Below are positions 25,799 through 58,449 of a stretch of 64,000 nucleotides of DNA, one piece after another; positions within the stretch are counted from its first letter, which is position 1; each line of letters opens with the position of its first letter. The notes beneath the pieces are model-generated. The model saw nothing but the letters and a program-made list of their open reading frames with translations. It did no database searches and was not told the DNA's origin. The stretch comes from Muricea muricata. Its lineage: Eukaryota > Cnidaria > Anthozoa > Malacalcyonacea > Plexauridae. The stretch spans positions 3,472,501-3,536,500 of the forward strand of contig OY979730.1 of the NCBI GenBank assembly GCA_963855995.1, given 5' to 3'. A program made the position numbers and the translations under genes.

Positions 25799-25799
25799 T

Positions 25800-30604: not shown

Positions 30605-30792
30605 AAAAAGGCAATTTAATTTTAATTTTGTGAATTTCGATTACAAAACATGCCTTGGACTGTCGACCAATTGATTTCGTCAGGCGATTACAGACTTGTG
30701 AGAGGAGGGGGGTAGCCTAATTACTAAAATGTAGTGAAAAAAGGACTTTCCATCTAATGGTGGGAGCAGGTTGGCGGGAACACTGGAGAATA

Positions 30793-31223
30793 AAGGTCCT
30801 GTCACAATGCAATTTTTCTTGCAACTTGAAATGCAATTCTACTATTGGGAGATGTAAAATTGGCAAATGCAAGTTTCCATCACAGTTTGCTGGGGGTTTT
30901 TAACGTACCAAACATTTGTCACAAATTTACTTAAGAGTAGATTTTCCCTGTAGCAAAAAAGATGGCAAATGTCGATTTTACCAGAGTGCATGGCAGTCTG
31001 AAATTGTTTAAAAAGGCAAATTAACGTCTTTTGAAGAACAGACAGAAGACAATAGGTTATTTTCACACTTGTGTTAAAATTTCAATCCAGTAGCTTTGTT
31101 TCTTGTCATCTTTTCCCACGTATTCTTTCTTGATACCTGCAATGCATTCTGGTAAAATCGACATGTCGCCATCTTTTTTGCTACGGTGAATGCAAGGAAA
31201 AGTGCACCGTGTGACAGGGCCTT
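30793..31223. mobile_element. Inverted-repeat element in left arm (GGYCCTGTCACA ends), containing a W element
   Basis: Ends AAGGTCCTGTCACAATGCAA and TGCACCGTGTGACAGGGCCTT-type complement. A further end-like copy lies at 31262-31303. Inside is a W element (30950-31184) with ends GTAGCAAAAAAGATGG and CCATCTTTTTTGCTAC. Mirror copy in the right arm at about 56436-56866. Confidence 0.65.
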
Positions 31224-31303
31224 AAGGGTAAGAGGTGGATAGAGAAGGAGACGGAGCAGTTACAAGTGCAAGAAAAATTGCACCGTGTGACAGGGCCTTG
31301 AGG

Positions 31304-34300
31304 GTGGGAGGTGGATAGGAGGAGACGGAGCAGGATGTGGGAGTCGTGCAAGGTCGGGAGGTTAAAAAAGAACAAGGAATGTTATGTTTTTAATGCCTTT
31401 TAGACTTTTCTTGAGGCAATTAAAATTCAAACTGTCAAATCCAAACACTGTACAGAATGGCCGACTTTACGTGGTCTTTAGTTTTTACACAACCACTTGC
31501 ATTGTTATCTTTTGCAGTTTGTTTACCATTTCAGTTATCTATCTTCAATAGAATTATTTGAAATTTGTTTGTAGATCGACAAAATGCTTAACCTCCTCTC
31601 AACAACTGGCAGATTATGAAAAATGAAATTGTTAAAGGTATTGGAATATTGCATGTACAATATTGAATATGGGACAATTTGGGACGGTATAATTTTGGAC
31701 ATGACGGTTTCATTCTCACCTAATTTGACGATTATTTTGTGGGTACACATACCGTGGAATCTCATGTGCTCCAGAAGCATTTTAATCTTAGAAAAAGTCA
31801 AATAATGATGAACTGTGTTTTAAAAGAAAGTTAGAATCTTATTTGGTTCAAATCAATTGAATTATGGCCCAAGAGTTCATGAAAACACATACAAAAGGCT
31901 TTCTTAAAAAACTGAAATATCAAATCTAGCAATTTTATATGTTATGCCTCTAAACAACACAATTCTGTTTCTAAAAATTGGTACCCTACTAGACCTATAT
32001 GCATGATTATACTAATTTGGACATATTTATTTTTACCCATTAAAATATAAATTTGTGTTTAATCATTCGTGTTTGTCATTATTTGACTTTGTAATGTTGG
32101 TTAAACATAAGGAGATTGAGGTGACTTTGCCAGAAACAAAAACATCCATTATTATACTAAAATTTCAATATATATAGCAATTAAAACTAACCACAGGAAA
32201 TATATTTCTACTTTTTAATTGAAATGTTTCTGTTATATGCACTATATCATATTTTTGATAAAAAATTACAACACCTATGTTATTTCCTGGTTTACTATCT
32301 CAATCATCTTTTGTTTAAGCTGGCTTTGAGTGTTCATTTGAAAGTTTGGAAAGTTCATTTGAAAATCACAATAGTTCTCAATGTTATATTGGACCCTTTA
32401 AAGTTAAAAAAATACTTTGTAATATTTTATACTACTGGTAATTTATCTTAGATACAGACTTTGTGATTTTGTACTAGAATGTTGACTTTCAAACTTTAAG
32501 ATGAACTACTTATTAAGGACAAAATAAGCTAGCATATTGTCTTTTGTTTACAAAGTGGAACTTGTTTGGAATTGAGATGAACTGATGCAGTTGTTCTTTA
32601 ACTTTATCAATTAATTACATATCTTAAATGAAAAAGAAAACCACAACTTGCCAAATAAATTCTGTGGGCTCTTTTTATTAGCAAAGAAAAGATGTGGCGG
32701 ATGTAAGAATTTAAGAGTAAAAAAGTTTCCTTGGACTAAAAAAATTGACAGTATGCCAGATTTTCTAGATAAACAAGCAGTACAGATGTTGGCCAATAAT
32801 AAGTATAAGTAACTACAATTTTTAATTTTAAAAGTTTTCTATTGATGCCTGGATACAGTAAATACTTTACCAGAGTTCTTCGTATTACATCGACTTGAAA
32901 AAGTTTTAAGTCACATGAAGCTTTTAGTTGATACTATGCAATTTCAAATTTTACAGACTTCTTAATTAACATGCCAAATTTACCTTGTTGAACATAAGGT
33001 CTTTCCTGAGAAAAAGTAAAACTGTCTGGCATTATATGGAGTAGAATAATTTAAATTAGTTTGAGACTTTGATTTGATAACAATTTTGATTTGTACTATT
33101 TACAATACAAGTGACCGGGTTGTATCGGATATAGAAACCCAAGCTGAAGGCGAGATATCTGACATACACAGATGCGAATGTTGTAAATGGCTTGTGAAAC
33201 TCGTCAATTTTATACATCAGATCTATAGCAAAGTGATTTTGAAAATACCGATTCTGTAAGATGAGAAAATGATTTCTTTTGTGTTTCCTGTATGATTTAT
33301 TACTTTATAAGCTTCTTAATTAAAATTACAACATATTGCCTACTGGAACTTTTTATATTGTTTGGTTGTGGTGAATTTGTATTTTGGCAATTGAAATATT
33401 TCTGAATTTGTATGTGCATTTCCTTTGCTTCAGTTCAAGTTTACATTTCAAATATTCCACTTTGTAATACTTGCGTGGTAATAATAATATAAGAAAACAG
33501 GTTTACATGGCTCTTGAATATAGTCTTTTCAACAAGTAAGTAAAGATGAATTTATACTTCAAAGAGATATGTTCCTAACCTGACAATGGTACCTTCCAAA
33601 AAGACTAAATTTAAATTGATTCTTCGAATAAATTTTTTACTTTTCAATCCAAGATCAATCTAAGTTATGTATTTCTACTTTTATTTTGGTCTCTTTAACA
33701 CTGAAACTATCAATTGTATATAAAGCAACTTCACTATCGAGTGACTTCATTAGTTGCTGGGCAAAGCCAAAGCATTGATTTTTCGGCTGTTTTCAATGAA
33801 AAATAGAATTTTGCCCAAAGTTATCTCAAATAAATTATCACAATTTGAAAAAAAGCTTCTGTTCTTGTGCCCACCAGAAAAATGAGATGTCTGAGACTTT
33901 CTTTGTATTTTTTTGCGAAAAATAGATCGCATGCACTGTTATGCAAAGAAAAGTGTAAGAGATTGGTTTCTGAAAAATGTCGTGCTACACACAATATTCT
34001 AAAAATGCTTGGTTTTTATTCTATGTATTTTTGAATTTTTTGTTAAAAAAAAATAAAGGTAGCAATGTTTAGTGCATTTCACATTGTCAGGTTAGAAACG
34101 CAATAAGAAAAATGTGGCTCCGAACATTACAGCTTGGTCAATTTGGAATTTATAAAAAAATCGTTTCTTCGTTGTTTTTCGACGTTTTGAAGGGTTGTTT
34201 CGAGTACAAAAAAGTATTTTTAGGAAGAATTATGTGCCCACGTTACATGTCTCAAAGCCATCAAAATTCGTTGGTAATTCGTGCATGTATTTTTTCTGAC

Positions 34301-34380
34301 TTATAAAAGCACAATTGATTAAAAATAATATTTTTCTTTTGACAAAAATACCTTTCTTCTGTGAGGCTGGCTGTATTTGA
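31304..34380. other. AT-rich part of the left arm without recognised genes
   Basis: Several ORFs of 60-90 codons occur on either strand and are repeated in the mirror copy, but none matches a family I know. One (33074-33259) contains HRCECCKWLVKLVNF and is unassigned. Confidence 0.4.
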
Positions 34381-34465
34381 AAAAGCGTTGGTCAACGCTC
34401 CGCCAAAACTCGTGGGTTTTCTCCGGGTACTCCGGTTCTTCCCACTGGGAGAGTTGACAGGGTAG
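34381..34465 (+). mobile_element. SINE fragment in left arm
   Basis: GGTCAACGCTCCGCC...GTGGGTTTTCTCCGGGTACT matches the body of the SINE at 19603. Mirror copy at about 53197-53281 on the minus strand. Confidence 0.6.
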
Positions 34466-34944
34466 TTACATATGGTTATAAAAATGTGACTAACTTTTGA
34501 AAACCTTTCTACTTAGACTTGTTAAGCCTTCTCGTCATCTCTATCAGTTGCATGTTTTGAGCCACATGTTTTTCTTTGTAATTGTGAAACAACTCGTTAT
34601 ATGCTGGGTAAACCTTTGCAAAACTCTCAAAATTTATCACTTCAAGTTGTTTCATTGTTATAATATATTTTGAAGTATAAACATTTACTTACGTTGAAAA
34701 GACCCAAGTTTTTTAGGACTTTGTTCATTCACTTGTGTTATTGTTCTCTCTGCCATGTTCTGTTTTCTTCTGTTGTTATTTTAATAAGTACAATGTGTGG
34801 TAGTTAATCTCTTTTTATTGTTATTCAAATTGTATGTAATCTTTACAAATTTTTTCAATAAATTGTTTACAAAATTTACTTGTGACCCCTTTTTAATTAA
34901 AAATTCAATTCCCATGGGAATTGAGAAATTGAATAAAAAAAATC

Positions 34945-35067
34945 CCCCTACCCTGGCCAGCTCCCCAAGTGCCACTTCCACCTAAGTAGAAGTACTTATA
35001 CATGTAGTACAAGTACTTCTACTTATTCACGGTGGAAGTAGCACTCGGAGAACTGGCCGGGGTAGCC
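34945..35067. repeat. Long hairpin in left arm
   Basis: Outer arms TACCCTGGCCAGCTCCCCAA and its imperfect complement ACTGGCCGGGGTA; inner arms AAGTAGAAGTACTT and AAGTACTTCTACTT around a short loop. Mirror copy at about 52596-52718. Confidence 0.65.
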
Positions 35068-35894
35068 GGCAAAGAGAAGACCAACTTTGCAAGTGCTAAT
35101 ACAATTGCTAAGTTGATCTTCCCTAGAGAGCAGCCGCGCGTACCTAACAAATTAAAACAACAAACGTTAGTGACTTAAGTACTTAGCATGCAAATTTGAT
35201 TCCCAAAGCCAAAATGTCAAGTGCCCCCCGCTGATCCTACCAACTGCCTACCTGCCTCAGTTCTAAGCTGTCTTCCTCAGTTCTAAGCTCCTGCATTCCA
35301 TTCGTTACCTTCACTTTCCTCACCATCGCACAGTCACTCACAGCTGATAAACCCGCATGCACCACCACCACCCCGACTGCCACCCAATTTCGAAAATTAA
35401 AAGAGTTAAAATTTCGGTAAAGTATGCATTTTAAATGCAATTTATTTGGATATTTTAGATCAAACGTAAACAGAAAAAGCTCGTACATAAAAACAGGTGA
35501 GAATTCTATTTAAAATTTGCTTGCAAAATATAAAACTTAATTCGCATTTTTCTTAGTTAATAGTATAGATCAATTTAGTTGATGTTGAAACCTACTCTTA
35601 ACTGTTTTGTTAGAAGTGACGACAGATTTTGGTTTTTAAGCATACTTTCAAAAATTTTAATTCCTTTAATAAACCTAACCCCATGCAACTTACACACGGC
35701 GCACACCCTCGCAGTCCATACATTTAGCTAATAAATTACGTTATAAACAAAAAAGCAAAATAAAAAGATAAATTACGTTATCTCTAGCTACTTAAACCCA
35801 CTTAGACTGAGTTTTTGATTGAATTTTCAAACGTAAAACCTTAGCTGAATGGGCATGGGCTTTTCGTTGTGTTAACTGTTCCGGAGTAAATATA

Positions 35895-36130
35895 TTGTAT
35901 CAAAGGCGTTTAGCTTAAACGGTGGATAAGTGAAATTTAAAAATCAGTTTTACACCTAGTACGGAACCGAAATTATGAGTTGAAATAGAATAAATATTTA
36001 GTTTTATATATAATTGTTCTTCTCAGGTCAAATAACTTCAGCTGGTTTGTTTATACAACATGGAAACGTGTTTCATATTTTTGACTTATCCACCGTTTAA
36101 GCTAAACGCCTTTGATACAACCGGCCCCTG
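35895..36130. mobile_element. V-family MITE, left-arm copy
   Basis: Reads TTGTATCAAAGGCGTTTAGC at the left and ends CAACCGGCCCCTG. The left terminus has lost the GGGGCCGG bases still present in the mirror copy (51520-51764). Confidence 0.75.
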
Positions 36131-36630
36131 ATACTTACCAAAGTCCAAGGCTGGGTCAAATAAGCATGAGAATTAGGCAAAAATAAAAAGCAATTGAAAC
36201 TCAACAGATTCACTAAAGTTGTTTTTTTTTTTGGCAACTTATATCCTTAAGTGTAGATGACATGCAATTTTTAATGCCGTAATTCTCACACTTATTTAAC
36301 CGAAACGCCTTCATTTGCATGGTACCTCGCAGCTGCTCTCAAACCACCTTCGTAATTTGCTTTAGTGTACACAAACAATGACTTCATTGTTCCTGCTTAC
36401 CAAAACAAATCTGAAAGCACCAAGATACTTATCATATTAATAATCAAAGAGGATTCGCATTATGCAGTAATTACCATAAACAGACGCATCACCATTGAAA
36501 CAAAGCATGCTGTATTCCCATGGGAATTTAAAATGCACAAAAAAATATAATGATCCTACTGATTTGCATGGATGTATGAACCAAATTAGCTAAGAAACAA
36601 AGAAATGATATATTCCCTTGGGAATTTAAT

Positions 36631-36860
36631 GTAGCAAAAAGATGGCGGGTGTTGATTTTACCAGAATGCCTTGCGGTCTGAAATCGTTTAAAAACTTAAG
36701 GTAAATTAACCTCGTTTGAGGAACAGACAGATAGGTTATTTTGTCACTTGTGTTAAAATTCCGTCCATTAGCTTATGTTAAATATCATTTCACTGCTATT
36801 CTTGATTGATACCCGCATTAAATTCTGGTAAAATCGACATGCCACCATTTGTTTTGCTAC
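36631..36860. mobile_element. W element, second copy in left arm
   Basis: GTAGCAAAAAGATGGCGGGT at the left and GTTTTGCTAC at the right, with TTGATTTTACCAGAATGCC and CTGGTAAAATCGACATG pairing. It is related to 30950-31184 and mirrored at about 50788-51018. Confidence 0.65.
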
Positions 36861-37769
36861 GGTGAATTGGAATACAAGTCAAATTTTCTCGCTTTTTAAC
36901 CAGAGAACACATTCTTTAAAGGTAGAACGACGGAATTGATCGTTTACAATCGACGCCATCTTTGTTGACGTTTGAAACACATGGCAACCACAAAGTATCT
37001 ATTCATTATATCTGATCCTATCGAGCCATACATCTTTAAAGTATCATTCATAATACGCTAAAACTAACGATGAAATAGTAAATTGACACTAGTGTTTCGC
37101 TGTAAACAGCTGAAGTAATCTGCAGAGTCAACCAAGTTGGCGCCCAATCACACGAAATGACGGCATGTGCAAACCAAAAATAGTGACCAAATCCATCAAC
37201 TATAATTTAGTGGCATTATTACGAAACTTATTTTTGTAAAACGTTCAATCCTACATGTTATTTTGTTTTGTTTTTAGAAATATCCAAATCCAAATGTTAG
37301 AGACGAAATTTCCAGGCGTTAAGGTATTGTTTCTTTAAAAAATATTGTCGACATTTACCATATTTTTACCTGTTTTTTGACTCGAAAATTGACTGCCAAA
37401 CTCCTAGATATTCTATTTAATTATTTTGTTGAATGTATTTGATATCAATGTTATTTCAATCCAATTTTTTTCACTTAATTTGCTGTCTTCTCTTTTTCAT
37501 TGACGAGAAATATCTATTAAATCCTCTTTGATCCCTCAATAATAAGTATCTTGTTTTCTACTAACTTGCACATTACCACTACTTTCTATTACAATGTCGT
37601 GTCTTCTCATTCTTGTGGATTGTTGTTTTGTGGGTCTTGTCGTCCAGGATCGTTCATTCTTTTCTCTTCTTGTGCGTTTTTTTCACATCCCATCACCCTT
37701 TGCAATAGTAGAAAGAATTAAATCATGAGATGATAGTTACGAGTAATTTATAAACTATAACATATTAAA

Positions 37770-37909
37770 CAATTATTGGATGAGGTTTTTGTGATATGCG
37801 GAATTATCAATGTCGAGGTAAGAGTTATCAGCCGAGCCGAAGGCGAGTCAGATAACTCTTACCGAGAGATTGATAATTTTGCATATCACAAAAACCGAAT
37901 CCGATAATT
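37770..37909. repeat. Hairpin repeat in left arm
   Basis: GAGGTTTTTGTGATATGC and GCATATCACAAAAACCGAAT pair, as do AAGAGTTATCAG and CAGATAACTCTT around a GCCGAGCCGAAGGCGAG loop. Mirror at about 49606-49740. Confidence 0.75.
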
Positions 37910-38092
37910 GCTTTATTATACATTTTAAGTCTTTTTCCTCGAGCAATTGACGCATTTCGCCCTCGGAAGAGCTTAAAAAGGAAGATGCCATAACATGAAA
38001 CAGAAAATATCGAAAAAATGTTGTTGCCATGCCAACCATTGATGCCAACGAATACCGCATACTGTAATAATCTGCACCGTAGGCTCAACATC

Positions 38093-38134
38093 CAGATAAC
38101 TCAGTTATCTGCTAGCAGATAACTGAGTTATCTG
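38093..38134. repeat. Perfect 42-bp palindrome in left arm
   Basis: CAGATAACTCAGTTATCTGC is followed without spacer by its exact complement, centred on TGCTAGCA. In the right arm the same site is interrupted by the MITE at 49163-49387. Confidence 0.85.
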
Positions 38135-38865
38135 CAGATTGTGTGATAGTCGCATTTATCTGCATACAACTGATCAATCACAACGCATAAAACAACTGCA
38201 ATGTATAATAAAATAGTTTATTAATTAGGCCGGCCAAATTATTGTGTGAGCTGTTAATATGAAATTTTTTTATTAAAATCTCGAGAATCATTAGTAAATC
38301 GTGAACAAAACACAAAAGAAAATCATAGCCGTGAAGGAGTCTTTATTTCTCACACGCACACAACTTGCAGCTACCCTAATTTATGATTTTAAATCAAAAT
38401 ATCTCGAGAATTAAACAACACGTAAGGAATGTGTAAATTCTTAAAGCTCTTTCGAACAATAAAAATTAATATCTCGCACTAATCTCTCTCAAAAGCTCTC
38501 TCAAATTTATTACCAATATCTCTTCAACTATTACTTTGCAGGTGAAATGTAACTTCTATCAAAACTAGCTTACTTCAAGTTGTTTGGGAATTAAGATTTT
38601 ACGTGTCAACGAGATCAAATATGAATCTAAGATGGCAGACAGCGCATTAAATTTCTATCTTTACGACCAACTCCCCAACGAAAGGCTTTAATTCGCTCGA
38701 AAGTCGAATTTTGTTTTTTTATTGTTTAATGTAGTGAAAGATCCTGTGTGCTTTTTACAGCACTGCCAACACTAGCAACGTTAGTGCGAGATGTTAATTT
38801 TTATTGAAACGAAAGCTGAACTGCTAAAGAAAATAGAAACGACAAGATAAAATCAAAAAACTTAC

Positions 38866-38955
38866 TTTCACTCTATCTTTGGATCTTCTTGGCTTCGGTT
38901 GTTCTCGTTTCATCATGCTGTTTATGGTTTCATCTGGTTGGCGCACTCTCTTCAT
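38866..38955 (-). pseudogene. Exon-like 30-codon segment, left-arm copy, product unknown
   Basis: Minus-strand ATG at 38955, open for 30 codons (begins MKRVRQPDETINSMMKREQP), ending at a consensus GTAAG donor. The identical segment is at 47966-48055, and a decayed copy lies near 58760. It looks like the first coding exon of a gene whose other exons are not present here. Not recognised. Confidence 0.35.
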
Positions 38956-39965
38956 GGAACATCACGCCGGTCCAGTAGGTAACTAGCTCACTCGTGTCCA
39001 GTCAACCAACATAAAATAAGGAGAAAATTAATGTTACAAAATATTTTAGAATATAGGACACTAAGCGTTAATTGAAATTGACTTTAACAAACCGTACATT
39101 GTGATAGTATTTGCATCTTAACATCTGATGGAGACGGCTTGTGATTTACTTCTTATGTCGATATGAATTCTTTCCCATCTTGTTGCGTCATTAGTTGATG
39201 GTTGTTGTATTCACTTTTTACTTGGCATTCTTTGAAAAAAAAATTACGATGTTCAGAAAACTGTTTACAAGATAAGCAAAGAAAACTACGTTCACAAGCA
39301 TTAGAGAGGACTAAGTAATTATAATAGGCGTGACAGGTCACAGAGGTTAGTCGACGAAGAAACTCATGGACAAATTCCCGGCATGATGATATTCCGATAG
39401 CAAGAAGTACAGCAAGTGTAGAACGTGTACGTGTAAGCTTAAACTGTATCTATGCAACTCCAAGAAAAGCGCAACACAAAATGGCGGAATTTAAAGACAT
39501 TTCTGGTGTCATTTCCAGTTCCCTAACTTTCGCGGACAAATATATTTATATATTTTTCTCAAATTTTTTTGAAGTAAATCTAGATGGATTTTGTGAATAA
39601 ACAAATTGAAAAAAGTATTGCCCACGTTAGGAAACTAGAACGGGCGCCCAAGAATGCCCACAATTTCTCCAATCTGGATTATATTTATTGATTGCGCAAA
39701 TGACTGATAAAAAATAAGAGAGTAATAAAATACCAAATGGTTTCCTCTTCAAGATAGTGTCATACATGCGCGCGGCATTTCGGGATATTTGGGAAAACTC
39801 GTGTTGAAGTTGAACCTAAGGCAACATGCCAAGTACATGGATGACGCTATCCTGCTCAGGAAACTATTTAGTAATTGTCTTACAAAATGATTACAGTGAA
39901 ACACAAGTCAACGCCACGGCATTTAAATTTCTCGTGTAGGATTGTTTGATCCTGCACAGTAATAG

Positions 39966-40110
39966 CCAAGTGGCGCAATCGTCAGAGCAAACGCCTATCA
40001 CATGTGAGGTCGTGGGTTCAATCCTTACTTCAGACTCGTGACACCCATGTGAGGAGTTAGTCAGTCGTGGGTTTATCCCGGGTACTCCGGTTTGCGAATG
40101 TTGACTGGAT
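39966..40110 (+). mobile_element. tRNA-derived SINE in left arm
   Basis: A-box-like TGGCGCAATCGTCAGAGC at 39971-39988, B-box-like GGGTTCAATCC at 40014-40024, then CCCGGGTACTCCGGTTT at 40077-40093. Mirror copy at about 46812-46963 on the minus strand. Confidence 0.7.
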
Positions 40111-42248
40111 GGTTAAAATTGTAAAATATCAGTAATCACCGGAACACGGGTACTTAACTAAACTGCTGACGATGAGGCGGAACTCATAATGAATTAATGA
40201 AAATGTGTTTCACTGTAGTTATCATATAATGTAATTGCCAAGCTGAATGAATAATTCTCCAGTAACTACGTCATATGAATAATTTATAATTATGAGAGTA
40301 GTGGGGGGGGGGGGGGGGCAGCATAAAGATTGAAGTAGTGTCAAGGAAGGGGTACTACCCTGACGGGTACTAGGCGAAGAAGTAGAGTAAACAGGAGGAA
40401 GAAAATTAAATTGGAGTAAATAAGGGGGATTGGGGTAAAGAAGGGGAGAAGCAGGATAAAGAAACCAGTGGAAGGGGGTGCTATCCTGGAAGGAGTACCC
40501 GGGAAAGAAGAGGGTGAACAGGAGGAAAAGTAGATTGGAGTACAGAAAGGGGAAATTAAACGGATCAGGAAATTCAGACTTGCAATTCAAATGAAAGGCA
40601 GCTCATTGGTCATGTAAACACTCGTTAAATCATGGTTCTCGCTTGCCTTTAGCTTGGAATCATCTTTGAATTTGAACTGAAAGTCTGAATTTGCATGTTT
40701 CTTGTATAGAGTGCAGTGTATCAGAACAGAAGAGGTTTTGAAGAAAAAGAAAGAAAGAATAAAAGTAAGTTAAAATTTGTAAAGAATAATGAAGAAACTA
40801 TTGGTACAGCACTTGATACATGATGATAATCATCATTATAAACTCTCTATTAATCCGGGGGGGGGTATAATAGAGAATTTGCAATGATAGTAAGTATATT
40901 GTAATATTTGGGTTTTTACCACTAAATCCTCTTGAAAGTTCTTTTTGGCTGTGGCTTCTCTCATCACAGTTGTCTGTGCTTGTCTTGCAAAATCTCTGGA
41001 ATATCTATAACGTGAAGGTCAATATTTAAGATTAGAAAAATAGAAACCGTAAAATAGAAAGAAATTTAAATCGTGGCGAATACTTTTTACGGTCTTGCTG
41101 GCATGACAAAAAGAGAGTATAGATTTATAAGATCATGTTGATTTATCCTTTATCTGAACTATATTTAACTTAGATTTTAAAATAGATTTCACCCTGGTAA
41201 GCAGACCGAATGGGTTTTCAAACAAGATAACATTTAATGACTAAAACGTGCACAGAATAGTTAGAGAATGCTTACATGTCGAATAAAAATCCAATACTTT
41301 TAATGTCCAACTACACAATAGCGATTTTCGTTGCATTTCTAGACTGGAGAAGAAGACGACGCCATTTTGATTTTGATTTCTCCCGACAACGGCAGATTTG
41401 TCTTCGCAATTTTTTTCCATTTCTTCGTCGTTTCAGCTCCAATTTGCTCGTTGTGTTTCTTTCGTACCTTCCTCGCCATTTCCGTACAACCAATGGACAT
41501 TTATACTCAAGATTAAGACTGTATTGAGACTTTCAAAATGTTCGTCAGGAGACATAAAAATCGAAGCTTCTTCTTCGGGTTGCAGAAGCAAATGACGTCA
41601 GACGACCTTTGTCCGCCAGCAAATACCCGTATGTATAACATTCAATGATCTTTTTAGGAAGCTGAAAATCGGTTTTTATTGCGCGAACGAAGTGTTTTTG
41701 CCATTATTTCTTACTCAGGTCTTTCTTCTGCTACTTTACTTCATGTTTACTTAGGTAACTTGCCAAAAGAAACGCCTGTAAGGGACAATTTTGCAATTTT
41801 TTTTATTTGGATGCTGATGAACAAGGGAAGACTCGTTAAAGCTTTCATTGGCAAATATCTTTCCCTCCGTGGCCGAGAGGTAAAGACAACTGTCTTGACT
41901 TCGATTTTGGGTGGATCGAGGACCGGTCCAGTTCAACTGAGTTTGGCAAGAATTTAATTCTGATCGATGCTCGATCCACCCAAAACTGAAGTCAAAGCTG
42001 GGCGTGGAGTGCAGGAAAACACTAGGCAGTACCGCGAGGCCGAGGAGGCAAACGTTATTTTCCCAGCGTTGTTAACTAATATTTAAGCAAATTTCATTAA
42101 CTTGACTGTTGGGGACAGACCTGTAGGGTTGGTGCATTGAAGACTTCTCGTCGTTATTTCCCTTCGTTCAAGAAGACAAGTTGTCTTCATCGAGAAATAA
42201 CGACGAAAAGACTTCAAGACACCACTAAACCACTACACTTTAAAGCTA

Positions 42249-46700: not shown

Positions 46701-46811
46701 TAACTACAGTGAAACACATTTTCATTAATTCATTATGAGTTCCGCCTCATCGTCAGCAGTTTAGTTAAGTACCCGTGTTCCGGTGATTACTGATATTTTA
46801 CAATTTTAACC

Positions 46812-47401: not shown

Positions 47402-47769
47402 AACTGGAAATGACACCAGAAATGTCTTTAAATTCCGCCATTTTGTGTTGCGCTTTTCTTGGAGTTGCATACATACAGTTTAAGCTCACACGTACACGTT
47501 CTACACTTGCTGTATTTCTTGCTATCGGGGTATCATCATGCCGGGAATTTGTCCATGAGTTTCTTCGTCGACTAACCTCTGTGACCTGTCACGCCTATTA
47601 TAATTACTCAGTCCTCTCTAATGCTTGTGAACGTAGTTTTCTTTGCTTATCTTGTAAACAGTTTTCTGAACATCGTAATTTTTTTTTCAAAGAATGCCAA
47701 GTAAAAAGTGAATACAACAACCATCAACTAATGATGCAACAAGATGGGAAAGAATTCATATCGACATAA
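47402..47769 (+). pseudogene. Longest ORF of the palindrome, right-arm copy, unknown
   Basis: Open from before 47402 to a stop at 47769, including NACERSFLCLSCKQFSEHR. The left-arm copy has a TAG stop in the middle (39440 region), and the older copy at 29398-29477 has several stops. It is therefore not under clear coding constraint. No family recognised. Confidence 0.3.
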
Positions 47770-47965
47770 GAAGTAAATCACAAGCCGTCTCCATCAGATG
47801 TTAAGATGCAAATACTATCACAATGTACGGTTTGTTAAAGTCAATTCAATTAAAGCTTAGTGTCCTATATTCTAAAATATTTTGTAACATTAATTTTCTC
47901 CTTATTTTATGTTGGTTGACTGGACACGAGTGAGCTAGTTACCTACTGGACCGCCTTGATGCTCC

Positions 47966-48055
47966 ATGAAGAGAGTGCGCCAACCAGATGAAACCATAAA
48001 CAGCATGATGAAACGAGAACAACCGAAGCCAAGAAGATCCAAAGATAGAGTGAAA
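47966..48055 (+). pseudogene. Exon-like 30-codon segment, right-arm copy, product unknown
   Basis: ATG at 47966, 30 codons, then GTAAGT donor; identical to the minus-strand copy at 38866-38955. The peptide is basic (KPRRSKDRVK at the end). No downstream exon could be identified. Confidence 0.35.
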
Positions 48056-48712
48056 GTAAGTTTTTTTATTTTATCTTGTCGTTTCCATTTTTTTAGCAGT
48101 TCAGCTTTTGTTTCAATAAAAATTAACATCTCGCACTAACGTTGCTAGTGTCGGTAGTACTGTAAAAAGCACACAGGATCTTTCACTACCTGAAACAATA
48201 AAAAAAAACAAAATTCGACTTTCGAGCGAATTAAAGCCTTTCGTTGGGGAGTTGGTCGTAAAGATAGAAATTTAATGCGCTGTCTGCCATCTTAGATTCA
48301 TATTTGATCTCGTTGACACGTAAAATCTTGATTCCCAAACAGCTTGAAGTAAGCTAGTTTTGATATAAGTTACATTTCACGTGCACAGTAATTCTCAAAG
48401 AGATATCGGCAATAAATTTGAGAGAGCTTTTGAGAGAGATTAGTGCGAGATATTAATTTTTATTGTTCGAAAGAGCTTTAAGAATTTACACATTCCTTAC
48501 GTGTTGTTTAATTCTCGAGATATTTTAATCTAAATTCATAAATTAGGGTAGCTGCAAGTTGTGTGCGTGTGAGAAATAAAGACTCCTTCACGGCTATGAT
48601 TTTCTTTTGTGTTTTGCTCACGATTTATTAATGATTCTCGAGACTTTAATAAAAAAATTTCATATTAACAGCTTACACAATAATTTGGCCGGCCTAATTA
48701 ATACTATTTTAT

Positions 48713-49076
48713 AATATACTGAGTGTCAAAGTTCATTTATTCCTGTTTCTTATTGGTTAAGAACGTATCACGTGATAGTGGAGAAATTCTATTGTCTCCC
48801 TGGCAACGTAGCTAAGCGGTGGACATTACTTTTATTCACCGGTAGACAACAAATCCACAAAGCCTCACGTAGCCATGTCAGGTAAAAGGTAATCCTTTTT
48901 ACACATGTTTGATTGATTTGTGGTACTTTTCTTCTCTTTTGGCACTCAGTATATAATAAAATACTTATTGACTGAGACCTCGGGAAAGCAGTATGTTTTG
49001 TGGACCCTCGACATCGACAGTCTCTGGTCCACAAAACATACTGTTTCCCTCGGTCTCAGTCAATAAGTGTTAATTA
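48713..49076. mobile_element. Right-arm-only insertion, about 360 bp
   Basis: Absent from the left arm, where the sequence runs straight across. The second half is a hairpin (48960-49068) with arms CTTATTGACTGAGACC and GGTCTCAGTCAATAAG and inner arms TATGTTTTGTGGACC and GGTCCACAAAACATA. The first half contains an X-box-like motif and a short start-codon segment (see findings). Confidence 0.75.
48794..48807 (+). promoter_or_regulatory. RFX X-box-like motif inside the right-arm insertion
   Basis: GTCTCCCTGGCAAC fits the X-box consensus GTYNCCATRGYAAC with one mismatch. It lies 68 bp before an ATG that is followed by a GTAATC donor. Motif match only. Confidence 0.3.
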
Positions 49077-49162
49077 CTATACATTGCAGTTGTTTTATGC
49101 GTTGTGATTGGTCAGTTGTATGCAGATAAATGCGACTATCACACAATCTGCAGATAACTCAG

Positions 49163-49387
49163 TCATACAATAAAAATACATAGAAGGGCCACTCAGCAGT
49201 GCAACATGTCACACTATGTTTATGCAGTTTACTGGCTGCCACCAGCCAGTTCAGCATTCCTATTGGCCAGAAAATGCAATTGACTGGCTGAGAAAATGCT
49301 AATAACGTGCGTAATGCGACATGCGCGGCTTCAAAAACTCCAAAGGCTCCGACGCGAGTGGCCCTTCTATGTATTCTTATTCTATGG
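49163..49387. mobile_element. Right-arm-only MITE, 225 bp, with CTCAG target duplication
   Basis: Ends CATACAATAAAAATACATAG and CTATGTATTCTTATTCTATG, continuing as AAGGGCCACTC/GAGTGGCCCTT. CTCAG occurs at 49158-49162 and 49388-49392, once in the left-arm empty site. The target is the 42-bp palindrome. Confidence 0.85.
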
Positions 49388-49763
49388 CTCAGTTATCTGC
49401 TAGCAGATAACTGAGTTATCTGCATGTTGAGCCTACGGTGCAGATTATTACAGTATGCGGTATTCGTTGGAATCAATGGTTGGCATGGCAACAACATTTT
49501 TTCGATATTTTCTGTTTCATGTTATGGCATCTTGCTTTTTAAGCTCTTCCGAAGGCGAAATTCGTCAATTGCTCGAGGAAAAAGACTTACAATGTATAAT
49601 AAAGCAATTATCGGATTCGGTTTTTGTGATATGCAAAATTATCAATGTCTTGGTAAGAGTTATCTGACTCGCCTTCGGCTCGGCTGATAACTCTTACCTC
49701 GACATTGATCATTTCGCATATCACAAAAACCTCATCCAATAAGTGCTTAATATGTTATAGTTT

Positions 49764-49847
49764 ACTTATTAAGCTTTGTGGAAACACCACGTAAATTTAT
49801 TATTGCAATAATAAATTTACGTGGTGTTTCCACAAAGCTTAATAAGT
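49764..49847. repeat. Perfect 84-bp spacerless palindrome (right arm only)
   Basis: ACTTATTAAGCTTTGTGGAA...TTTATTATTG is followed at once by its exact complement, with the centre between 49805 and 49806. It is part of a roughly 134-bp insertion bounded by two copies of ATGTTATAGTTTA (49752-49764 and 49886-49898). The left arm has one copy and no insert. Confidence 0.9.
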
Positions 49848-51519
49848 ATATTGTATTCACCATGCAAACGTACAAGAAACTTATCATGTTATAGTTTATA
49901 AATTATTCGTAACTATCATCTCATGACTTAATTCTTTCTACTATTGCAAAGGGTGATGGGATGTGAAAAAAACGCACAAGAAGAGAAAAGAATGAACGAT
50001 CCTGGACGGCAAGACCCACAAAACAACAATCCAAAAGAATAAGAAGACACGACATTGTAATAGAAAGTAGTGGTAATGTGCAAGTTAGTAGAAAACAAGA
50101 TACTTATTATTGAGGGATCAAAGAGGATTTAATAGATATTTCTCGTTAATGAAAAAGAAAAGACAGCAAATTAAGTGAAAAAAATTGGATTGAAATAACA
50201 TTGATATCAAATACATTCAACAAAATAATTAAATAGAATATCTAGGAGTTTGGCAGTCAATTTTCGAGTCAAAAAACAGGTAAAAATATGGTAAATGTCG
50301 ACAATATTTTTTAAAGAAACAATACCTTAACGCCTGGAAATTTCGTCTCTAACATTTGGATTTGGATATTTCTAAAAACAAAACAAAATAACATGTAGGA
50401 TTGAACGTTTTACAAAAATAAGTTTCGTAATAATGCCACTAAATTATAGTTGATGCATTTTGTCACTATTCTTGGTTTGCACATGACGTCATTTCGTGTG
50501 ATTGGGCGCCATCTTGGTTGACTCTGCAGATTACTTCAGCTGTTTACAGCGAAGTACTTGTGTCAATTTACTATTTCATCGTTAGTTTTAGCGTATTATG
50601 AATGATACTTTAAAGATGTATGGCTCGATAGGATCAGATATAATGAATAGATACTTTGTGGTTGCCATGTGTTTCAAACGTCAACAAAGATGGCGTCGAT
50701 TGCAAACGATCAATTCCGTCGTTCTACCTTTAAAGAATGTGTTCTCTGGTTAAAAAGCGAGAAAATGTGACTTGTATTCCAATTCACCGTAGCAAAACAG
50801 ATGGTGGCATGTCGATTTTACCAGAATTTAATGCGGGTATCAATCAAGAATACCAGTGAAATGATATTTAAGATAAGCTAATGGACGGAATTTTAACACA
50901 AGTGACAAAATAACCTATCTGTCTGTTCCTCAAACGAGGTTAATTTACCTTAAGTTTTTAAACGATTTCAGACCGCAAGGCATTCTGGTAAAATCAACAC
51001 CCGCCATCTTTTTGCTACATTAAATTCCCAAGGGAATATATCATTTCTTTGTTTCTTAGCTAATTTGGTTCATACATCCATGCAAATCAGTAGGATCATT
51101 ATATTTTTTTGTGCATTTTAAATTCCCATGGGAATACGGCATGCTTTGTTTCAATGGTGATGCGTCTGTTTATGGTAATTACTGCATAATGCGAATCCTC
51201 TTTGATTATTAATATGATAAGTATCTTGGTGCTTTCAGATTTGTTTTGGTAAGCAGGAACAATGAAGTCATTGTTTGTGTACACTAAAGCAAATTACGAA
51301 GGTGGTTTGAGAGCAGCTGCGAGGTACCATGCAAATGAAGGCGTTTCGGTTAAATAAGTGTGAGAATTACGGCATTAAAAATTGCATGTCATCTACACTT
51401 AAGGATATAAGTTGCCAAAAAAAAAAAACAACTTTAGTGAATCTGTTGAGTTTCAATTGCTTTTTATTTTTGCCTAATTCTCATGCTTATTTGACCCAGC
51501 CTTGGACTTTGGTAAGTAT

Positions 51520-51764
51520 CAGGGGCCGGTTGTATCAAAGGCGTTTAGCTTAAACGGTGGATAAGTCAAAAATATGAAACACGTTTCCATGTTGTATAAA
51601 CAAACCAGCTGAAGTTATTTGACCTGAGAAGAACAATTATACATAAAACTAAATATTTATTCTATTTCAACTCATAATTTCGGTTCCGTACTAGGTGTAA
51701 AACTGATTTTTAAATTTCACTTATCCACCGTTTAAGCTAAACGCCTTTGATACAACCGGCCCCA
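51520..51764. mobile_element. V-family MITE, right-arm copy with both ends
   Basis: Starts CAGGGGCCGGTTGTATCAAA and ends TTTGATACAACCGGCCCC, about 245 bp, with an interior as in 14070-14812. The corresponding site in the older copy (59871-59890) lacks the element. Confidence 0.8.
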
Positions 51765-53196
51765 GGTTTATATTTACTCCGGAACAGTTAACACAACGAA
51801 AAGCCCATGCCCATTCAGCTAAGGTTTTACGTTTGAAAATTCAATCAAAAACTCAGTCTAAGTGGGTTTAAGTAGCTAGAGATAACGTAATTTATCTTTT
51901 TATTTTGCTTTTTTGTTTATAACGTAATTTATTAGCTAAATGTATGGACTGCGAGGGTGTGCGCCGTGTGTAAGTTGCATGGGGTTAGGTTTATTAAAGG
52001 AATTAAAATTTTTGAAAGTATGCTTAAAAACCAAAATCTGTCGTCACTTCTAACAAAACAGTTAAGAGTAGGTTTCAACATCAACGAAATTGATCTATAC
52101 TATTAACTAAGAAAAATGCGAGTTAAGTTTTATATTTTGCAAGCAAATTTTAAATAGAATTCTCACCTGTTTTTATGTACGAGCTTTTTCTGTTTACGTT
52201 TGATCTAAAATATCCAAATAAATTGCATTTAAAATGCATACTTTACCGAAATTTTAACTCTTTTAATTTTCGAAATTGGGTGGCAGTCGGGGTGGTGGTG
52301 GTGCATGCGGGTTTATCAGCTGTGAGTGAATGTGCGATGGTGAGGAAAGTGAAGGTAACGAATGGAATGCAGGAGCTTAGAACTGAGGAAGACAGCTTAG
52401 AACTGAGGCAGGTAGGCAGTTGGTAGGATCAGCGGGGGGCACTTGACATTTTGGCTTTGGGAATCAAATTTGCATGCTAAGTACTTAAGTCACTAACGTT
52501 TGTTGTTTTAATTTGTTAGGTACGCGCGGCTGCTCTCTAGGGAAGATCAACTTAGCAATTGTATTAGCACTTGCAAAGTTGGTCTTCTCTTTGCCGGCTA
52601 CCCCGGCCAGTTCTCCGAGTGCTACTTCCACCGTGAATAAGTAGAAGTACTTGTACTACATGTATAAGTACTTCTACTTAGGTGGAAGTGGCACTTGGGG
52701 AGCTGGCCGGGGTAGGGGGATTTTTTTTATTCAATTTCTCAATTCCCATGGGAATTGAATTTTTAATTAAAAAGGGGTCACAAGTAAATTTTGTAAACAA
52801 TTTATTGAAAAAATTTGTAAAGATTACATACAATTTGAATAACAATAAAAAGAGATTAACTACCACACATTGTACTTATTAAAATAACAACAGAAGAAAA
52901 CAGAACATGGCAGAGAGAACAATAACACAAGTGAATGAACAAAGTCCTAAAAAACTTGGGTCTTTTCAACGTAAGTAAATGTTTATACTTCAAAATATAT
53001 TATAACAATGAAACAACTTGAAGTGATAAATTTTGAGAGTTTACAAAGGTTTACCCAGCATATAACGAGTTGTTTCACAATTACAAAGAAAAACATGTGG
53101 CTCAAAACATGCAACTGATAGAGATGACGAGAAGGCTTAACAAGTCTAAGTAGAAAGGTTTTCAAAAGTTAGTCACATTTTTATAACCATATGTAA

Positions 53197-53281
53197 CTAC
53201 CCTGTCAACTCTCCCAGTGGGAAGAACCGGAGTACCCGGAGAAAACCCACGAGTTTTGGCGGAGCGTTGACCAACGCTTTT
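53197..53281 (-). mobile_element. SINE fragment in right arm (mirror of 34381-34465)
   Basis: Minus strand carries GTGGGTTTTCTCCGGGTACT. It is adjacent to the same flanks as the left-arm copy. Confidence 0.6.
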
Positions 53282-56200
53282 TCAAATACAGCCAGCCTCA
53301 CAGAAGAAAGGTATTTTTGTCAAAAGAAAAATATCATTTTTAATCAATTGTGCTTTTATAAGTCAGAAAAAATACATGCACGGATTACCAACGAATTTTG
53401 ATGGCTTTGAGACATGTAACGTGGGCACATAATTCTTCCTAAAAATACTTTTTTGTACTCGAAACAACCCTTCAAAACGTCGAAAAACAACGAAGAAACG
53501 ATTTTTTTATAAATTCCAAATTGACCAAGCTGTAATGTTCGGAGCCACATTTTTCTTATTGCGTTTCTAACCTGACAATGTGAAATGCACTAAACATTGC
53601 TACCTTTATTTTTTTTAACAAAAAATTCAAAAATACATAGAATAAAAACCAAGCATTTTTAGAATATTGTGTGTAGCACGACATTTTTCAGAAACCAATC
53701 TCTTACACTTTTCTTTGCATAACAGTGCATGCGATCTATTTTTCGCAAAAAAATACAAAGAAAGTCTCAGACATCTCATTTTTCTGGTGGGCACAAGAAC
53801 AGAAGCTTTTTGTTCAAATTGTGATAATTTATTTGAGATAACTTTGGGCAAAATTCTATTTTTCATTGAAAACAGCCGAAAAATCAATGCTTTGGCTTTG
53901 CCCAGCAACTAATGAAGTCACTCGATAGTGAAGTTGCTTTATATACAATTGATAGTTTCAGTGTTAAAGAGACCAAAATAAAAGTAGAAATACATAACTT
54001 AGATTGATCTTGGATTGAAAAGTAAAAAATTTATTCGAAGAATCAATTTAAATTTAGTCTTTTTGGAAGGTACCATTGTCAGGTTAGGAACATATCTCTT
54101 TGAAGTATAAATTCATCTTTACTTACTTGTTGAAAAGACTATATTCAAGAGCCATGTAAACCTGTTTTCTTATATTATTATTACCACGCAAGTATTACAA
54201 AGTGGAATATTTGAAATGTAAACTTGAACTGAAGCAAAGGAAATGCACATACAAATTCAGAAATATTTCAATTGCCAAAATACAAATTCACCACAACCAA
54301 ACAATATAAAAAGTTCCAGTAGGCAATATGTTGTAATTTTAATTGAGAAACTTATAAAGTAATAAATCATACAGGAAACACAAAAGAAATCATTTTCTCA
54401 TCTTACAGAATCGGTATTTTCAAAATCACTTTGCTATAGATCTGATGTATAAAATTGACGAGTTTCACAAGCCATTTACAACATTCGCATCTGTGTATGT
54501 CAGATATCTCGCCTTCAGCTTGGGTTTGTATATCCGATACAACCCGGTCACTTGTATTGTAAATAGTACAAATCAAAATTGTTATCAAATCAAAGTCTCA
54601 AACTAATTTAAATTATTCTACTCCATATAATGCCAGACAGTTTTACTTTTTCTCAGGAAAGACCTTATGTTCAACAAGGTAAATTTGGCATGTTAATTAA
54701 GAAGTCTGTAAAATTTGAAATTGCATAGTATCAACTAAAAGCTTCATGTGACTTAAAACTTTTTCAAGTCGATGTAATACGAAGAACTCTGGTAAAGTAT
54801 TTACTGTATCCAGGCATCAATAGAAAACTTTTAAAATTAAAAATTGTAGTTACTTATACTTATTATTGGCCGACATCTGTACTGCTTGTTTATCTAGAAA
54901 ATCTGGCATACTGTCAATTTTTTTAGTCCAAGGAAACTTTTTTAATCTTAAATTCTTACATCTGCCACATCTTTTCTTTGCTAATAAAAAGAGCCCACAG
55001 AATTTATTTGGCAAGTTGTGGTTTTCTTTTTCATTTAAGATATGTAATTAATTGATAAAGTTAAAGAACAACTGCATCAGTTCATCTCAATTCCAAACAA
55101 GTTCCACTTTGTAAACAAAAGACAATATGCTAGCTTATTTTGTCCTTAATAAGTAGTTCATCTTAAAGTTTGAAAGTCAACATTCTAGTACAAAATCACA
55201 AAGTCTGTATCTAAGATAAATTACCAGTAGTATAAAATATTACAAAGTATTTTTTTAACTTTAAAGGGTCCAATATAACATTGAGAACTATTGTGATTTT
55301 CAAATGAACTTTCCAAACTTTCAAATGAACACTCAAAGCCAGCTTAAACAAAAGATGATTGAGATAGTAAACCAGGAAATAACATAGGTGTTGTAATTTT
55401 TTATCAAAAATATGATATAGTGCATATAACAGAAACATTTCAATTAAAAAGTAGAAATATATTTCCTGTGGTTAGTTTTAATTGCTATATATATTGAAAT
55501 TTTAGTATAATGGATGTTTTTGTTTCTGGCAAAGTCACCTCAATCTCCTTATGTTTAACCAACATTACAAAGTCAAATAATGACAAACACGAATGATTAA
55601 ACACAAATTTATATTTTAATGAGTAAAAATAAATATGTCCAAATTAGTATAATCATGCATATAGGTCTAGTAGGGTACCAATTTTTAGAAACAGAATTGT
55701 GTTGTTTAGAGGCATAACATATAAAATTGCTAGATTTGATATTTCAGTTTTTTAAGAAAGCCTTTTGTATGTGTTTTCATGAACTCTTGGGCCATAATTC
55801 AATTGATTTGAACCAAATAAGATTCTAACTTTCTTTTAAAACACAGTTCATCATTATTTGACTTTTTCTAAGATTAAAATGCTTCTGGAGCACATGAGAT
55901 TCCACGGTATGTGTACCCACAAAATAATCGTCAAATTAGGTGAGAATGAAACCGTCATGTCCAAAATTATACCGTCCCAAATTGTCCCATATTCAATATT
56001 GTACATGCAATATTCCAATACCTTTAACAATTTCATTTTTCATAATCTGCCAGTTGTTGAGAGGAGGTTAAGCATTTTGTCGATCTACAAACAAATTTCA
56101 AAGAATTCTATTGAAGATAGATAACTGAAATGGTAAACAAACTGCAAAAGATAACAATGCAAGTGGTTGTGTAAAAACTAAAGACCACGTAAAGTCGGCC

Positions 56201-56435
56201 ATTCTGTACAGTGTTTGGATTTGACAGTTTGAATTTTAATTGCCTCAAGAAAAGTCTAAAAGGCATTAAAAACATAACATTCCTTGTTCTTTTTTAACCT
56301 CCCGACCTTGCACGACTCCCACATCCTGCTCCGTCTCCTCCTATCCACCTCCCACCCTCAAGGCCCTGTCACACGGTGCAATTTTTCTTGCACTTGTAAC
56401 TGCTCCGTCTCCTTCTCTATCCACCTCTTACCCTT

Positions 56436-56866
56436 AAGGCCCTGTCACACGGTGCACTTTTCCTTGCATTCACCGTAGCAAAAAAGATGGCGACATGTCG
56501 ATTTTACCAGAATGCATTGCAGGTATCAAGAAAGAATACGTGGGAAAAGATGACAAGAAACAAAGCTACTGGATTGAAATTTTAACACAAGTGTGAAAAT
56601 AACCTATTGTCTTCTGTCTGTTCTTCAAAAGACGTTAATTTGCCTTTTTAAACGATTTCAGACTGCCATGCACTCTGGTAAAATCGACATTTGCCATCTT
56701 TTTTGCTACAGGGAAAATCTACTCTTAAGTAAATTTGTGACAAATGTTTGGTACGTTAAAAACCCCCAGCAAACTGTGATGGAAACTTGCATTTGCCAAT
56801 TTTACATCTCCCAATAGTAGAATTGCATTTCAAGTTGCAAGAAAAATTGCATTGTGACAGGACCTT
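56436..56866. mobile_element. Inverted-repeat element plus W element, right arm (mirror of 30793-31223)
   Basis: GGCCCTGTCACACGGTGCAC at the left and GCATTGTGACAGGACCTT at the right, with the W element between. Confidence 0.65.
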
Positions 56867-57054
56867 TATTCTCCAGTGTTCCCGCCAACCTGCTCCCACC
56901 ATTAGATGGAAAGTCCTTTTTTCACTACATTTTAGTAATTAGGCTACCCCCCTCCTCTCACAAGTCTGTAATCGCCTGACGAAATCAATTGGTCGACAGT
57001 CCAAGGCATGTTTTGTAATCGAAATTCACAAAATTAAAATTAAATTGCCTTTTT

Positions 57055-58443: not shown

Positions 58444-58449
58444 ACGCCT

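Follow-up and report, generated by a model that had tools for sequence, protein, structure and literature searches.

The window analysed here, a stretch of 64,000 nucleotides from the octocoral Muricea muricata, contains a palindrome of 26.4 kb with a spacer of 0.56 kb. It comprises a left arm (30605-43166, plus strand), a central spacer or loop (43167-43727, plus strand) and a right arm (43728-57054, minus strand). Alignment of the window with itself by blastn paired the arms in four blocks: 30605-37763 with 57054-49886 (99.2% over 7174), 37751-38127 with 49764-49388 (96.8% identity), 38204-42955 with 48716-43965 (98.2% over 4759) and 42956-43166 with 43939-43728 (97.2% identity). The near-perfect 26-kb palindrome described in the first-pass annotation is confirmed by this alignment, chiefly by the 99.2% and 98.2% blocks, and the outer limits given for it, 30605 and 57054, proved exact; they are sharp, at AAAAAGGC and GCCTTTTT. 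The extra sequence assigned to the right arm is also present, but instead of three insertions we count two large blocks, at 48717-49387 (671 bases, where the left arm has 76) and at 49765-49885 (about 121 bases against 0), together with small ones.

At the level of uninterrupted reading frames, the statement that the arms hold no recognisable gene is borne out. Their longest open reading frame (ATG, GTG or TTG start) encodes 128 aa, and no credible Pfam match was obtained among the arm frames scanned, namely three arm frames among six from the window and then 10 of the 22 stop-to-stop frames that reach 70 aa within the left arm and spacer. The best arm matches were dismissed as chance because they are weak (E 0.03-0.43), and no Rfam or tRNA match was found in the window. 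A Polinton/Maverick or a Teratorn was rejected, as these arms, with a maximum of 128 aa and no credible Pfam match in the scanned frames, lack several long open reading frames.

The mobile unit was found to exceed the palindrome. It is a non-coding, Helentron-like, non-autonomous element of 28,990 bases (29476-58465, plus strand), recognised by ends that are shared between loci with different flanks. The left end is identical at further loci and the right end in seven loci, the flanks differing in both cases, and this divergence starts outside two modules, H1 and H2, that border the palindrome, not at the palindrome limits. H1 (29476-30604, plus strand) is the 5' module of a Helentron-like unit, and its first 412 bases or so are 88% similar to H2; a 3' end of its own was not found. 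H2 (57055-58465, plus strand) is a complete short non-autonomous Helentron-like unit with its own 5' hairpin, tandem repeats of 31/62 bases (57759-57897, plus strand), and a 3' hairpin and end.

The ends of the whole element carry ACTCCGCCTGCCGTAGGC and CTTGTT. At the 5' end, a palindromic subterminal inverted repeat (subTIR) forms a hairpin, ACTCCGCCTGCC...GGCGGAGT (29476-29503, plus strand), which is preceded by TT and folds at -12.8 kcal/mol as DNA (z -5.4). The 3' subTIR, GGCAGGCGGAGT (58430-58441, plus strand), is the reverse complement of ACTCCGCCTGCC and is followed by the hairpin ACGCCT-TAGC-AGGCGT, which stands six bases before the element end and occupies 58444-58465 (plus strand) together with the terminal CTTGTT. 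By folding score alone this 3' hairpin is weak (-6.3 kcal/mol, z -1.1, 30 of 200 shuffles equally good). The dinucleotide TT precedes the 5' end at every locus where that end was seen, whereas the base after the 3' end is T in only three of seven copies, and a strict T-T insertion rule is not proved. By eye, no regular target-site duplication was found in the seven copies with both flanks: six show none, and in the seventh the two ends share an 8-base similarity (GAATTTAA) that might also stem from a target duplication.

The element shares three features with Helentrons and HINEs, namely subTIRs some 11-15 bases long, which are often palindromic, a short stem-loop near the 3' end and internal tandem repeats, the last being present in some copies of that group. 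A canonical Helitron (5' TC, 3' CTRR, A-T target) was rejected, the ends here being TT|ACTCC and CTTGTT. A foldback or TIR DNA transposon was likewise rejected, given that the outer ends differ (H1 against H2) in 42 of 76 exact copies and that no regular duplication accompanies them. The Helitron Rep domain PF14214 has at least 150 matches in the genome (150 of 150 scored, from 352 candidates), none of them linked to the element ends.

The first-pass annotation had suggested a genome-wide search for further copies, and the palindrome centre does recur: a 40-mer from the spacer (43570-43609) occurs 268 times in the 453-Mb genome with up to three mismatches. The left-junction (H1) 40-mer occurs 355 times and the right-junction (H2) 40-mer 174 times, which together balance the 2 x 268 arms. 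The 36-mer of the 3' end occurs 1075 times within two mismatches, whereas centres number 268 and right junctions 174, so that this end also exists without the palindrome. The control count was 0 in each of these searches. The centre lies at no fewer than 73 distinct places among 80 scored matches, and the element is present at a few hundred places in the genome. All six retrieved copies are palindromes of about 28 kb, some 99% identical to the window copy; they were picked from the best centre matches and therefore necessarily contain the centre. Pairing of junctions and centres, like the orientation and end-class counts below, was based on the exact matches listed for contigs C3-C6 and for C7 to 10.03 Mb, and among these no centre was found for 11 of the 100 left junctions or for 7 of the 53 right ones. 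If all 268 copies were full-length, they would amount to about 7.8 Mb, or about 1.7% of the genome.

With regard to the origin of the palindrome, near-perfect palindromes are among the classic errors of assemblers, and mirrored stretches in single copies could indeed be of this kind. An assembly fold-back or a collapse of haplotypes is nevertheless extremely improbable for the family as a whole, and the first-pass suggestion to this effect is unsupported at that level: the 268 centres have different flanks and many distinct positions, a spacer is present, the ends are precise and shared, and differences between arms, including a marker of about 595 bases, are common to copies. An inverted segmental duplication, also proposed, fits neither the exact shared ends nor the copy number. 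A giant foldback element comes nearest of the three readings, the dispersal and apparent mobility of the sequence being in keeping with it; the outer ends, however, differ from those of foldback or TIR elements. In a related view, a DDE transposase would move the palindrome, which would itself be a giant foldback/TIR transposon with the Helentron pieces as chance neighbours. Inverted arms are typical of such elements and the palindrome limits are sharp, but the H1 and H2 junctions number about two per centre, so these neighbours are fixed parts, and the different flanks begin beyond them; we consider this explanation very unlikely.

The reading that we prefer, with a probability of about 0.78, is that of a 29-kb non-coding Helentron-type element carrying a captured palindrome, the arms of which recombine and which grows by snap-back in a minority of copies. 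A Helentron-type (rolling-circle, Rep/helicase) transposase would act in trans on cis ends provided by the 5' end of H1 (29476) and the 3' end of H2 (58465). The position of the 26.4-kb palindrome, between H1 and H2, is as read-through capture would give. Replication would start at H1, pass through both arms and stop at the H2 hairpin, so that the palindrome would be copied as a unit.

Copying as a unit also follows from the arms themselves, which fall into two haplotypes, alpha and beta, shared between copies; in the window copy the left arm is alpha and the right arm beta. Arm type and the marker of about 595 bases agree across seven copies: the block marking beta-type arms (48717-49387) corresponds in alpha arms to about 76 bases. 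Among 14 arms, the spacing of the flanking blocks is 77 in six, 672 in six, 703 in one and 1387 in one, the last of which holds a further insertion. The outer part of the arms, at 30605-36200 on the left (plus strand) and 51459-57054 on the right (minus strand, the inner limit being approximate and mirrored from the left arm), retains no memory of alpha and beta. In the two halves of this zone, the arms of one copy differ by 0.29 and 0.21%, against 0.48-0.50 and 0.29-0.30% between copies, and an arm's own partner is its nearest relative in only 6 of 12 and 5 of 12 arms (raw counts). This comparison excludes copy C on account of a duplicated stretch in its left arm. The divergence pattern indicates that arm-to-arm conversion, acting after insertion, probably homogenises the outer 5.6 kb or so. 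Crossovers between the arms would in addition flip the inner part with respect to the ends, and the loop with respect to the arms. All four orientations of loop and arms were found, in classes of 29, 9, 8 and 2 among 58 copies (exact matches listed), with 10 of the 58 left unclassed, being of other lengths and without arm type; alternatively, such a mixture may reflect old subfamilies.

A sizeable minority of copies appear to have grown. Among the 76 exact copies listed, 42 are H1/H2, 15 are H1/H1 with a second, inverted H1 in place of H2, none are H2/H2, and 16 carry an H1 junction at one end only, the opposite end lacking an exact junction. In five of six H1/H1 copies examined, the neighbouring non-element DNA is mirrored as well, the 5' end itself being unseen in two of the five (C9:9.50 and C5:0.707 Mb); further mirrored stretches lie at C9:2.82, C8:14.15 and C6:10.06 Mb, and the copy at C6:2.455 Mb has unmirrored flanks. 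A remainder of the old right side persists beyond the mirrored stretch in copies C and D. At C6:10.07 Mb an outward H2 junction lies 7.8 kb past the second H1, and at C9:9.50 Mb 38 bases of arm lie beyond the mirrored stretch. The proposed growth step could account for an inverted H1 and its neighbouring DNA on the H2 side: because of the giant inverted repeat in the Helentron, a strand primed at the nick in H1 may snap back within the palindrome, be extended outward beyond the point where it began and finally be joined into the locus.

Ordinary double-strand-break repair competes with this growth step only. Without rolling-circle initiation, a broken right arm would use the left arm as a template, continue outward into host DNA and then be end-joined. 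We regard this as a substantial possibility, at a little under even odds, as arm-to-arm conversion is indicated anyway and the joint in copy C, judged by eye, shares at most a base or so, resembling end joining. Breaks should, however, strike both sides equally, whereas H1/H1 outnumbers H2/H2 by 15 to 0 of 76; one H2/H2-like pair on C3 (19.89/19.92 Mb) has to be added, and it counts against a strictly one-way process.

The distribution over contigs is uneven. Exact centres number 0 on C1, 0 on C2, 1 on C3 and 83 on C4-C7, so that exact copies are almost absent from C1-C3 and nearly all lie on the smaller of the long contigs (C4-C15). Regular spacing was rejected, with coefficients of variation of 0.53-0.89 on C4-C7, not clearly regular; for this analysis gaps above 2.5 Mb were dropped, C7 was taken as 14.1 Mb, and the extents of C1-C3 are lower bounds (the largest coordinate among the PF14214 matches listed). 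Rolling-circle transposition does not explain the near-absence from C1-C3. The counts would fit an assembly of two genomes (contaminant, cobiont or hybrid) with the element in one of them, but this is unlikely. C1 and C2 carry many copies of the same Helentron 3' end, and the Rpb1 N-terminal domain occurs in cellular-gene-like form at three loci, on C2 and C3, its one representative in C4-C15 being a compact, different-looking copy on C13; the Rpb1 family therefore gives no second set.

The Helentron-type element can be compared with several known systems. Foldback (FB) and other long-TIR transposons, among which Meloidogyne Tm1 is reportedly grouped, have long inverted arms and a short middle, but the ends, the asymmetric H1/H2 termini and the fact that a regular target duplication seems to be lacking point to a Helentron. 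The ampliconic palindromes of sex chromosomes are kept alike by arm-to-arm gene conversion and undergo crossover inversions. The element resembles them in conversion and in inversion by crossover, to the extent that these are indicated here, and differs in being dispersed in a few hundred copies, with conversion limited, as far as seen, to the outer 5.6 kb. HINEs, as far as the consulted part of PMC4067079 describes them, have palindromic 12-base subTIRs near both ends. According to the same part, HINE/DINE-1 elements (non-autonomous Helentrons) share with ours the subTIRs, 3' stem-loop, tandem repeats, non-coding nature and, on the 5' side, T-rich insertion sites, whereas the present element has a length of 29 kb, a 26-kb palindromic body with recombining arms, two 5' ends and, in some copies, mirrored neighbours. 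Helraiser-type capture, in the consulted part of PMC4778049, bypasses the 3' end and transduces downstream DNA to another terminator. Long composites are common to such Helitrons and our element, and maize Helitrons reach up to 39 kb, as cited in the consulted part of PMC6431247. Unlike what these sources describe in those parts, the captured piece here is one giant inverted repeat instead of gene fragments, and the composite has been amplified to a few hundred closely similar copies. No palindromic Helentron was found in the literature searched, which consisted of titles and abstract openings with few subscription journals.

Long palindromes are usually considered unstable, and yet one of 26 kb persists here at a few hundred places despite this presumed instability. 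The family thus supplies numerous natural replicates in which conversion between arms, inversion and the growth of palindromes can be measured, processes for which single sex-chromosome palindromes otherwise serve. It also bears on the rolling-circle replication of a self-folding template and on the near-confinement of a transposon to a subset of chromosomes. As a tentative extension, possible and rather doubtful, we propose a self-extending mobile palindrome, in which snap-back would leave a larger palindrome with mirrored host DNA, spread over one chromosome subset. If this is true, rolling-circle transposition would act in one direction only, generating palindromes of ever greater size and hence inverted host segments.

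This analysis revealed that the window carries a real non-autonomous Helentron-like element with a giant palindrome as its body. Self-alignment of the window showed the palindrome coordinates of the first-pass annotation to be exact: the arms run from 30605 to 43166 and from 57054 to 43728, with a spacer at 43167-43727 between them, and their matching blocks are 97-99% identical. Its claim that the palindrome holds no recognisable gene also stood, as scans for stop-free ORFs, Pfam, Rfam and tRNA gave none credible. No arm ORF exceeds 128 aa, none of the 13 arm ORFs scanned has a credible Pfam match, and no Rfam or tRNA match was found within the window. Judged on stop-free ORFs, the arms are, as far as tested, non-coding. 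Sequences that are 77-80% like arm parts 41259-42409 and 38802-39182 occur outside the element, at 527-1701 of another fetched locus (L040) and at 58522-58906 of the window, respectively, and the arms therefore contain older dispersed repeats. To the left of the palindrome, the self-alignment also showed many small hairpin elements with inverted repeats, 0.4-1.7 kb long (27772-29356, 21631-23300, 24904-26078, 25152-25764, 26510-26910, 19785-20227 and 14169-14672), in a region which seems rich in foldback-like repeats; the last of these elements recurs as an insertion in copy F at 96% identity. Of the window ORFs scanned, just one looked protein-like, a 161-aa ORF at 12965-13450 whose match to the SPRY domain falls below threshold (E 3e-5, 24.5 bits vs a cut-off of 26.3).

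From left to right, the element comprises H1 (a 5' module whose 3' end was not recognised), the alpha arm, the spacer, the beta arm and H2 (a complete small Helentron-like unit); H1 and H2 share 88% identity over their first 412 bases. At the left limit, 29476, identity breaks off sharply against unrelated flanks in the window copy and in copies A, C, E and F, with unrelated flanks also at loci L030-L037 and three more, and TT ends the left flank wherever the 5' end was seen. This sharp end was found in nine of the ten loci of the left-end query set, window included, L038 being rearranged. At the right limit, 58465, identity ends with CTTGTT in the window, F and C; among seven predicted right ends fetched, four had the terminus, two had right-end sequence short of it and one gave no match. 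As the copies share both limits, the mobile unit spans 29476-58465. A palindromic 12-base subTIR forms a hairpin at the 5' end of this unit (fold z -5.4) and recurs as its reverse complement at 58430-58441; next come the hairpin ACGCCT-TAGC-AGGCGT, weak on its own (fold z -1.1), and CTTGTT. T is the base after the 3' end in only three of seven copies. H2 contains 31/62-base tandem repeats. HINE elements and DINE-1 are described with such ends and repeats in PMC4067079, and the subTIRs, 3' hairpin, CTTGTT end and H2 repeats fit that description. A 36-mer of the 3' end occurs 1075 times in the genome, about four times as often as the palindromes; this 3' end is thus common to a wider family. In copy A (contig C9 near 8166003), the right side includes just the initial 27 bases of the H2 5' hairpin and then stops, as if this hairpin had acted as a terminator or the copy had lost its H2.

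In the assembly (453 Mb, 74 contigs; the window is C15:3472501-3536500), full-length matches numbered at least 40 for a 701-base spacer query, window included (40 scored of 1485 candidates), and at least 40 for the left-end query (40 scored of 2117), together marking 73 distinct places. Six copies were chosen from centre matches, and each of the 30-kb stretches retrieved held a ~28-kb palindrome ~99% identical to the window. With 40-mers and up to three mismatches, 268 centres (in the spacer), 355 left junctions (arm-H1) and 174 right junctions (arm-H2) were found, backwards-pattern controls giving 0; the 529 junctions amount to about two per centre. At C4:3808408-3822407, a left and a right junction lie a mere 14.0 kb apart, the mark of either a copy shortened by deletion or one with a single arm.

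Diagnostic sites in 14 arms of seven copies define the two arm types, alpha and beta, from ~36.8 kb inward, with local exceptions in copies B, D and E; the right arm of copy C changes type at ~41.4-41.7 kb. Beta is marked by a ~595-base block; the blocks that flank this site stand 77 apart in six arms and 672 apart in another six, with 703 for one arm of F and 1387 for one arm of D, the latter including a further insertion. In the inner part, measured in six copies with copy C dropped, partner arms are 1.0-2.0% apart vs 0.4-0.6% for same-type arms across copies. Because inner arms match their type across copies better than their partner, what was amplified was a single palindrome whose arms had diverged beforehand: it is copied as a unit, and its arms are older than its spread. 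The outer 5.6 kb reverses this pattern, indicating that the arms recombine. The two types are lost there, arms within one copy are 0.29 and 0.21% apart (two halves) vs 0.48-0.50 and 0.29-0.30% for different copies, and the own partner is the nearest relative of 6/12 and 5/12 arms, against 0, 0 and 1 of 12 further in (raw counts). In 58 exact copies that have a single H1 junction, typed by arm length only, the H1-side arm is beta with a flipped loop in 29 and a window-like loop in nine, alpha with a window-like loop (as in the window) in eight and a flipped loop in two, and of other length in ten. Two nested inversions by arm-arm crossover are the simplest reading of the four orientations; alternatively, these may be old subfamilies, each spread on its own.

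Exact centres on C3-C6 and on the first 10.03 Mb of C7 number 76, of which 42 are flanked by H1/H2, 15 by H1/H1, 16 by H1/unknown, three by H2/unknown and none by H2/H2. We inspected six H1/H1 copies, three of the 15 plus copies C, D and C9:9.50 Mb. The mirror runs 536 bases past the H1 end in copy C, ~270 in copy D (where one of the two H1 copies is truncated) and at least 77 at C6:10.07 Mb. At C9:9.50 Mb and C5:0.707 Mb, 1.2 kb and ~110 bases of non-element DNA are mirrored, the 5' end itself being absent from the fetched stretch; both may instead carry an insertion within H1 that conversion has mirrored. The copy at C6:2.455 Mb has both ends intact and flanks unlike each other. Beyond the mirrored stretch, the old right side persists as 56303-58465 in copy C, 57176-58465 in copy D, an outward H2 junction 7.8 kb past the second H1 junction at C6:10.07 Mb (10054223 vs 10062018) and 38 bases of arm at the limit of the sequence retrieved at C9:9.50 Mb; the inverted H1 and its neighbour were thus placed between arm and H2. 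A DNA strand whose synthesis is primed at the nick in H1 may snap back in the palindrome and copy outward from the H1 side only, and copying restricted to that side, if it holds, is what such a snap-back would give. Ordinary break repair is a fairly plausible source of these copies, but it should act on both sides, whereas H1/H1 outnumbers H2/H2 by 15 to 0 among these exact centres. At C3:19891977-19918477, two outward H2 junctions 26.5 kb apart, with no exact centre match, mark a candidate H2/H2 palindrome; apart from it, C3 has almost no exact copies. This pair and the unmirrored C6:2.455 Mb copy speak against a strict H1-side rule.

Among the first 100 matches listed in contig order, exact centres number 0 on C1 and C2, 1 on C3, 16 on C4, 22 on C5, 24 on C6, 21 on C7 and at least 16 on C8; exact left junctions number 0, 0 and 1, and exact right junctions 0, 0 and 3, on C1, C2 and C3, respectively. 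C1-C3 cover at least 251 Mb, and the length-based skew of exact copies has P = 2.7e-54, lengths being partly lower bounds. All matches listed were exact ones, and copies with mismatches may also be present on C1-C3. The Helentron 3' end is common on C1 and C2. That a second genome was joined into the assembly is an improbable cause of this confinement: three loci on C2 and C3 carry cellular-looking Rpb1-domain matches, one of them split into four stretches and the other two in a single stretch, but C4-C15 hold the domain in one compact copy only, on C13. On this one gene family, a second genome looks unlikely. Compact Rpb1 N-terminal-domain copies, possibly of viral or plasmid origin, occur at C1:4.46, 20.6, 40.8 and 100.8 Mb, C3:30.7 Mb and C13:6.08 Mb; those on C1 have frames 254-830 aa long, in contrast to the C3 copy that is split over four stretches.

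With regard to origin, rolling-circle replication would start at H1, meet no terminator, traverse the palindrome and stop at the next Helentron end. Read-through capture is shown for Helraiser in PMC4778049, and the H1-palindrome-H2 layout is that expected from such capture. H2 may have inserted into the right arm of a formerly longer palindrome, which would explain why the palindrome limit coincides with the H2 start. As Helitron Rep domains (PF14214) are plentiful, with at least 150 genome matches (150/150 scored, of 352 candidates), the genome is a likely candidate source of the transposase, no Rep locus being tied to these ends. About two thirds of the 150 listed matches (105 by hand count) lie on C1, the largest contig, which has 0 exact palindrome copies among the matches listed. 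Helentron-like elements are of a known kind, and this palindromic form of them is new, standing out by its size, by what it does once inserted and by its confinement.
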